From NCBI RefSeq assembly GCF_002356115.1, contig NZ_AP014836.1, positions 682,001 to 746,000 on the forward strand: a stretch of DNA of 64,000 nucleotides, read 5' to 3'. Position numbers and translations under genes: made by a program. The DNA is from Candidatus Nitrosoglobus terrae. GTDB taxonomy: Bacteria; Pseudomonadota; Gammaproteobacteria; Nitrosococcales; Nitrosococcaceae. Shown piece by piece: positions 7,974-62,554 of this stretch (positions within the stretch are counted from its first letter, which is position 1; every line of letters begins with the position of its first letter). The notes under the pieces are model-generated. The model made no database searches and was not told the origin of the DNA. It saw only the letters and a list, made by a program, of their open reading frames with translations.

Positions 7974-8000
7974 TTATATTGTTCTATATATTCATATATA

Positions 8001-8034
8001 AAAGGCTGGTGATAGTAGCCACCAGCCTTTTTCC
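8001..8034 (+). terminator. Terminator/attenuator between rplL and rpoB
   Basis: Perfect 11-bp stem AAAGGCTGGTG (8001-8011) / CACCAGCCTTT (8020-8030), 8-nt loop, followed by TT and more T-rich sequence. This is the textbook shape of a rho-independent terminator and sits where E. coli has the partial rplL-rpoB attenuator. Since no separate rpoB promoter is obvious, read-through is expected. Confidence 0.85.
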
Positions 8035-46763: not shown

Positions 46764-47651
46764 GTGAAATCAATTACTAAGGCTGTATTTCCTGTAGCTG
46801 GACTAGGCACTCGTTTCCTTCCTGCAACTAAAGCAAGCCCAAAAGAGATGCTTCCCATTGTGGATAAGCCTTTGCTTCAATATGCTGTTGAGGAAGCCGT
46901 TGAGGCAGGTATTAAAGTAATGATCTTTGTAACTGGGCGTAATAAATGGCCAATTCCTGATCATTTCGATAAAGCCTATGAATTGGAAGCTGAGCTGGAA
47001 AAGCGGGGTAATAATAAATTATTAACATTAGTGCGGAATATTATTCCTAAGGATATTACTTGTGTTTATATTCGCCAAGAAGAAACCTTAGGATTAGGTC
47101 ATGCAGTGCTCTGCGCTGCCCCTGTTGTAGATGATCAGCCTTTTGCTGTGATTCTCGCCGATGATTTAATCCATACAAGTGATGAAGGCTGTCTTTTGCA
47201 GATGGTCAAGCAATTTAGTAAGCATCGCTGTAGTTTAGTGGGTGTTGAAGAGATAGATCTTGGAAACGCGGAACAATATGGCATTATCCAGCCTGGCTTA
47301 ACTGAAGGTCGAGAGTATAAGGTAGAAGGAATTGTTGAGAAGCCTACACCAGCGGCTGCCCCTTCTTCATTGGCAGTAGTGGGTCGCTATATTTTAACGC
47401 CTCGTATCTTTGATTTATTACGAACTACTACTAGCGGTGTTGGTGGTGAGATTCAGCTGACAGATGCACTAGCAGCTTTATTGAAGCAGGAATATATGTT
47501 TGCTTACCGTTTTAGTGGCAAGCGCTATGATTGCGGCAGTAAATTAGGTTATCTTCAAGCTACAGTAGAGTATGGGCTTAAGCACTCTGAGTTAGGCCAA
47601 CCTTTTAGAGATTATCTGTATACCCTACTGGATTATCATCAAGACGTTTAA
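46764..47651 (+). CDS. galU: GalU, UTP-glucose-1-phosphate uridylyltransferase
   Basis: Makes UDP-glucose for glycans. 295 residues from GTG 46764. Nucleotidyltransferase signature FPVAGLGTRFLPATKASPKE (residues 9-28) with EMLPIVDKP, RQEETLGLGHAV, VILADDLI and VEKPTPAAAPSSLAVVGRY are present. It is two bases downstream of the dehydratase gene, so the two form an operon supplying activated sugars. Confidence 0.95.
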   Translation: MKSITKAVFPVAGLGTRFLPATKASPKEMLPIVDKPLLQYAVEEAVEAGIKVMIFVTGRNKWPIPDHFDKAYELEAELEKRGNNKLLTLVRNIIPKDITCVYIRQEETLGLGHAVLCAAPVVDDQPFAVILADDLIHTSDEGCLLQMVKQFSKHRCSLVGVEEIDLGNAEQYGIIQPGLTEGREYKVEGIVEKPTPAAAPSSLAVVGRYILTPRIFDLLRTTTSGVGGEIQLTDALAALLKQEYMFAYRFSGKRYDCGSKLGYLQATVEYGLKHSELGQPFRDYLYTLLDYHQDV

Positions 47652-47974
47652 AACTTATAATTTTATTTTTGAAATTTGAGAGGTGATAGGAAAACTGATT
47701 TTATTTGGATATTGTTTAGTATTTTTTGATAATTACAGTGTATCTTTATGCTTTAAGAAAAAAATCTTATATCTATCTAGGTAATTCTTTAATTAATTAA
47801 AGAATTACCTACCTTAGACGTAATTATAGTTAATAAAAATAGCCAATTTATTTTTAATTTTGTAGATTGAGTATAAAAAATTTACTTCCTTTCTAGAAAG
47901 AAGATGTTTTACCTATCAGTTTAGGTAATAGTAAAATTCTATGAGAGTAGCAGAATAAAAATAGAAGATTCAGA
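47652..47974. other. Intergenic region galU-surE
   Basis: About 320 bp, very AT-rich. The only clear structure is a perfect 34-bp palindrome at 47778-47811. I see no gene and no confident promoter for surE. Confidence 0.5.
47778..47811. repeat. Perfect 34-bp palindrome
   Basis: Two 17-nt arms with no spacer, beginning TAGGTAATTC and ending GAATTACCTA; every pair was checked. It lies 127 bp after galU and 164 bp before surE. It could form a hairpin in RNA from either strand or a dyad protein-binding site. No T-tract flanks it, so a simple terminator is not obvious. Confidence 0.85.
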
Positions 47975-62405: not shown

Positions 62406-62433
62406 AGTACTACAATTTAACTATTGTAGTACT
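62406..62433. repeat. 11-bp perfect inverted repeat in the map-rpsB intergenic region
   Basis: AGTACTACAAT (62406-62416), 6-nt centre, ATTGTAGTACT (62423-62433). Its right arm covers the predicted rpsB -35 region. No T-tract on either strand, so an operator-type site is more likely than a terminator. Confidence 0.8.
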
Positions 62434-62461: not shown

Positions 62462-62483
62462 TTTAAAAGCAAATAAAATCACA

Positions 62484-62554
62484 CGTACATCGGCACATAT
62501 ACTAGGGTGCCTTTAGTAAGGTTAGTATCTGGGATGTACGGAGGAAGAACCCTA
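62484..62554 (+). promoter_or_regulatory. rpsB leader RNA (t44-like), pseudoknot-capable
   Basis: CGTACATC (62484-62491) pairs with GATGTACG (62533-62540), and TAGGGT (62503-62508) with ACCCTA (62549-62554). The stems interleave, so both together would make an H-type pseudoknot. This is the map-rpsB position of the conserved t44/rpsB leader of gammaproteobacteria, through which S2 represses its own synthesis. An alternative stem GTTAG/CTAAC (62521-62525 with 62552-62556) competes. Confidence 0.65.

Follow-up and report, generated by a model that had tools for sequence, protein, structure and literature searches.

A perfect 34-bp palindrome between galU and surE, single copy and lineage-specific, as a possible gene-end hairpin without a U-tract

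The gap between galU and surE in Candidatus Nitrosoglobus terrae carries a perfect 34-bp palindrome that occurs once in the genome and that was found in none of 62 other genomes of the order. It is tentatively read as a single-copy, lineage-specific, AT-rich palindrome that was perfected by template switching and that would act in RNA as a gene-end hairpin without a U-tract; this reading is ranked first, at somewhat less than even confidence, and a functionless by-product of mutation comes closely behind it as almost as likely. The features of the locus are given below in coordinates of the window (the whole stretch of DNA analysed, 64,000 nucleotides).

46764..47651, + strand: galU (UTP-glucose-1-phosphate uridylyltransferase), upstream neighbour; ORF with TIGR01099 above cut-off
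47652..47974, no strand: galU-surE gap, 323 bp, 22% GC (27 window gaps from a crude ORF call average 33%)
47778..47811, no strand: palindrome, 34 bp, perfect, 17-nt arms; predicted RNA fold: 15-bp stem, UUAA loop, -15.6 kcal/mol
47908..47937, + strand: weak promoter-like match TTTACC-18-TAAAAT (9/12), with the small dyad lying over its first hexamer and spacer
47909..47928, no strand: small dyad TTACCTA-N6-TAGGTAA, its heptamers shared with the outer ends of the palindrome; the only exact copy in the genome
47975..48727, + strand: surE (5'/3'-nucleotidase), downstream neighbour; ORF with NF001489 and TIGR00087 above cut-off

The palindrome consists of TAGGTAATTCTTTAATT followed directly by its reverse complement, and it lies 126 nt past the galU stop and 163 nt ahead of the surE ATG. 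The earlier note had reported its coordinates, its two 17-nt arms and the lack of any spacer or mismatch, all of which proved exact on recheck. None of 20,000 dinucleotide shuffles made from the 323-bp gap gave arms of 17 nt (longest shuffled arm, 12), nor did any of 40,000 first-order Markov sequences with the composition of the gap (longest, 16). Analytically, 1.8e-6 such palindromes are expected in the gap, and 0.011 in an entire genome of 2.018 Mb with the gap's extreme composition. The palindrome is not explained by composition alone. Among 27 gaps of the window (60-2000 bp, taken from a crude ORF call), this one holds the longest perfect arm, the next two being 12 and 11 nt. Twenty stretches sampled from the same genome, 400 kb in all (with the five longest repeats taken per repeat-rich region), gave at least eight repeats with fully complementary arms of 13-14 nt at a distance of up to 40 nt, the longest arm being 14 nt, and no repeat listed there combined fully complementary arms of 13 nt or more with a zero spacer.

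The identity of both neighbours, as named in the earlier note, is confirmed by NCBIfam models, with galU scoring 365.9 bits against a cut-off of 326.8 (TIGR01099) and surE 388.9 bits against a cut-off of 295 (NF001489). The genes that follow surE are pcm, an nlpD-like gene (model score below cut-off) and prfB. That note had also described the gap as free of any other feature, which has to be amended for the small dyad and the weak promoter-like match found ahead of surE. The genome comprises 2,018,309 bases in two contigs and encodes an ammonia monooxygenase subunit (PF02461, 392 bits; no match in any of 14 control genomes). The second contig is small, 6.4 kb by subtraction, and holds a 16-mer twice, at G000:C2:2074-2089 and 2146-2161, 72 bp apart, possibly as the iterons of a small plasmid.

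Among the checks proposed in the earlier note were a genome-wide search for copies and a comparison with relatives. The first returned no second copy in the 2.02-Mb genome with up to three mismatches allowed; in the second, conservation was not borne out, since at the same threshold its own genome alone, out of 63 from the order, carried the palindrome and the 62 others lacked it. A looser pattern with a free centre was found in 1 of 62 genomes, the own one included. This distribution fits the proposal that such a palindrome is either selected or recently made and, being perfect over all 17 pairs, it would seem to be young or maintained. The arrangement of the two genes differs among the family relatives: in G002, the nearest small relative (1.8 Mb, from the same family), the ORFs of galU and surE overlap; they are separated by two ORFs in the larger relatives G003 and G004, and lie far apart in G001 and G005. 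The gap is, as judged from these gene orders, lineage-specific, and because the arrangements differ, the spacer of 323 bp and 22% GC looks as though it arose by rearrangement or loss within the lineage. The intervening ORFs (L166:1240-5744 and L167:1536-3652), which we take to be formate-dehydrogenase-like (fdh), are much shorter and overlapping in L167 (G004), as if decaying.

Seven galU or surE regions from five family relatives gave at least four inverted repeats, none of those listed resembling the palindrome; the longest fully complementary one among them has 14-nt, GC-rich arms without a spacer and lies about 2.3 kb before the G001 surE (L172:2769-2796). When the gap was aligned with sequence flanking galU and surE in the relatives, no convincing homology emerged beyond the gene ends (mean column identity 36%). 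A scan of genome contigs with galU brought up no near relative among the best 80 loci (top identity 66%), and the 63 order genomes compared include no second genome of the genus. A match to the palindrome core in G002 (68278-68299, E 0.145) covers 22 bp within an ORF and was taken as chance.

At the RNA level, the predicted stem has three G-C pairs, the surrounding 121 nt are predicted to fold better than every one of 200 shuffles (z -4.74) and a 339-nt stretch better than 98 of 100. The hairpin is as stable as a terminator would call for, and the U-tract expected directly after the stem is missing: the flank reads CCTTAGAC on the + strand and GATAGATA on the - strand, so that the earlier statement that T-tracts are absent is right for the immediate flanks. 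A run of seven Ts on the - strand (47758-47764) starts 13 nt beyond the stem, which is too far out for a standard terminator, and that side has no gene running towards the stem, surE being on the + strand as well. Known structured RNAs of Rfam were ruled out, with nothing in the gap at gathering score (best weak match, a microRNA-precursor hairpin at 23.3 bits, where the gathering score is 97).

Taken as a gene-end hairpin, the palindrome would have begun as a shorter or imperfect inverted repeat that was completed by template-switch (quasipalindrome) mutation. Template switching is documented in E. coli (PMC7202029) and is described as making palindromes more perfect (PMC7202029, PMC8794818), and perfect symmetry can in this way arise from mutation alone. 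RNA polymerase reading past galU would then produce a transcript that folds into the 15-bp stem and UUAA loop 126 nt past the stop. Lacking a U-tract, the hairpin would not release the polymerase efficiently and would hinder 3'-5' exonucleases, by which it would define or protect the 3' end of the galU mRNA; if transcribed, it is more likely to be an RNA-end stabiliser than a terminator. PMC10434271 also belongs to the literature drawn on. Arms far beyond chance, the site after a stop codon, the fold z-score and the lack of a U-tract on either strand all count for the gene-end hairpin, as do two other hairpins without U-tracts at gene ends, L052:7769-7803 in the same genome and L182:439-473 in G002. 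On the other hand, the palindrome is kept in no relative examined, so that selection on it cannot be inferred, and an RNA hairpin does not require a DNA symmetry with zero spacer.

The two hairpins just named belong to a wider set. Flanks were examined for seven of the eight listed fully complementary repeats of the 400-kb sample, that is, all except L056:19782. L052:7769-7803 has no U-tract on either side and lies 31 nt from an ORF 3' end; L050:9745 lies between converging ORFs and its arms carry short A/T ends; L063:3603 has a U-rich stretch after it, read on the strand of its gene; L063:15544 and L065:9133 both lie within ORFs; L053:7501 is 5' of an ORF; and L064:4400 comes after a doubtful 111-aa ORF. 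The last of these (L064:4400-4439) has fully complementary 14-nt arms and a 12-nt loop (GTCAGGTCTTAGCC...GGCTAAGACCTGAC). Within the window, a terminator-like hairpin with a T-rich tail occurs at 8000-8031, which marks the palindrome as an element of another sort. A perfect 11-bp hairpin is also found at 62406-62433 of the window, a short way 5' of an Rfam t44 match (62462-62550). In the 200 kb sampled from G002, the AT-rich hairpin L182:439-473 has 17-nt arms with one mismatch (94% complementary); it spans the short gap of two converging ORFs and overlaps the end of the first.

The parS core consensus is TGTTTCACGTGAAACA, and it is carried by the longest perfect palindrome among those listed in the same G002 sample, which measures 32 bp (L179:1401-1432, that is G002:C1:1401-1432). 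Together with the gene-end hairpin of G002, this site indicates that the family has long symmetric elements at gene ends and also one of a known protein-binding kind. The galU-surE palindrome resembles parS centromere sites such as this 32-bp extended site in being long, perfect and spacer-free within the same bacterial family, but its core is entirely different and it is a single copy in its gap. Identity with parS was rejected: the sequence differs from the parS core, which has no match in the own genome with up to one mismatch; with three mismatches it matches 5 places, none of them at the palindrome, and the reversed control matches 4.

The closest known counterparts are the 3'-end stabilising mRNA hairpins without U-tracts described in PMC13289151, with which the palindrome shares a putative stem-loop past the stop codon and a strong predicted fold. 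According to that source, Rho-dependent ends are trimmed to a hairpin with a GC-rich stem and have C-rich, G-poor sequence downstream; the palindrome differs by its AT-rich predicted stem and its zero DNA spacer, and the 163 nt that follow it, with 15 C and 24 G, are not C-rich and G-poor (rut-like). It likewise agrees with the perfect inverted repeats that bacterial surveys describe between genes (PMC13155455, PMC6060812) in being intergenic, past a stop codon and built of perfect arms. Bacterial inverted repeats are reported to peak at +50 to +80 from the stop codon and to have mostly 4-5 nt spacers (PMC13155455), whereas the palindrome has no spacer, lies farther from the stop codon than this peak and has longer arms than any repeat listed from the 400 kb sampled in its genome.

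Template switching within the AT-rich spacer may also have made the perfect palindrome without any function resulting, in which case it would probably be short-lived. This neutral origin is quite possible, although on the doubtful side of even. It is favoured by the single-copy state of the palindrome and its absence from the 62 other genomes of the order, also with the looser pattern, by the lineage-specific gap (overlap in G002, intervening genes in G003 and G004, distance in G001 and G005), by a GC content that is the second lowest of the 27 window gaps and by the E. coli precedent for the mechanism (PMC7202029). The perfection of all 17 pairs, which points to a young or a maintained element, and the position at a gene end speak against it, neither being decisive.

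An operator is an unlikely explanation: a dimeric DNA-binding protein would read TAGGTAA/TTACCTA half-sites both in the palindrome and in the small dyad that lies over a possible promoter of surE, and might loop out the 124 bp separating the two centres. One heptamer pair forms dyads twice within 323 bp, and none of 20,000 shuffled versions of the downstream flank contained the exact dyad (spacer 0-12, either order), but a 7-bp hairpin with any heptamer in common with the palindrome turned up in 1,721 of 60,000 shuffles made from both flanks (2.9%), both tests having been devised after the dyad was seen. The small dyad does overlap the promoter-like match, and such matches in the region are at chance level (4 found, 2.9 expected). 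Moreover, order and spacing differ between the two elements (TAGGTAA-N20-TTACCTA against TTACCTA-N6-TAGGTAA), TAGGTAA alone is common in the window (13 + 10 places), and the six neighbouring products examined include no regulator. The small dyad matches one place in the genome at zero mismatches, none at one and 22 at two (reversed control, 18), and the palindrome too has no second copy; neither the recurrence at several genes nor the retention in relatives that would mark an operator was seen in the own genome and the order genomes. A local operator with a single target would be weakly compatible with this absent recurrence, and the small dyad is a weak hint of one. An operator search in the literature for TAGGTAA/TTACCTA led only to DtxR boxes, TTAGGTTAG(G/C)CTAACCTAA (PMC1382209), which have the same outer TAGGT...ACCTA half-sites and do not fit, since the palindrome has 34 bp against a 19-bp box, an unsuited interior and spacing, and a host of another phylum. 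It is more speculative still, and very unlikely, that palindrome and small dyad form a lineage-specific operator pair through which a putative regulator would loop the AT-rich spacer and couple galU sugar-nucleotide supply to the stress gene surE in this small-genome ammonia oxidiser.

An ordinary intrinsic (Rho-independent) terminator of galU is highly improbable: site and stability of the hairpin would suit it, but the stem is AT-rich and followed by CCTTAGAC in place of a U-tract, and a terminator scan of the region did not list it, in keeping with the view of the earlier note that this is not an obvious terminator. The earlier note had offered a protein-binding dyad or a bidirectional RNA hairpin for the full symmetry, and both are candidates at most: since galU and surE both run on the + strand, a bidirectional terminator has no second client, and neither the own genome nor the order genomes searched hold another copy that might serve a regulon. 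Least probable of all is a remnant of a mobile element (MITE or insertion-sequence end) or one copy from a dispersed family of palindromic repeats, for which a direct 8-mer TAGGTAAT at 47778 and 47922 can be read as a flanking duplication, and against which stand the lack of a second genome copy of gap or palindrome (best other gap match E 0.0125 over 33 bp), of an exact viral-contig match to its 30-bp core, of terminal inverted repeats by eye and of any gap ORF longer than 33 aa. REP/MITE-type families were ruled out on the one copy at up to three mismatches and the unrepeated gap DNA, and a phage, plasmid or viral origin was rejected, the six phage and five plasmid records found matching the gap briefly, over 10-18% of the query.

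A striking perfect palindrome can thus be single copy, lineage-specific and restricted to a rebuilt spacer, and its confinement to one such spacer means that symmetry alone is no proof of selection. In this genome it looks like an unusually tidy, otherwise ordinary gene-end hairpin, and should RNA ends be mapped there, it would be an AT-rich addition without a U-tract to the class of 3'-end hairpins.
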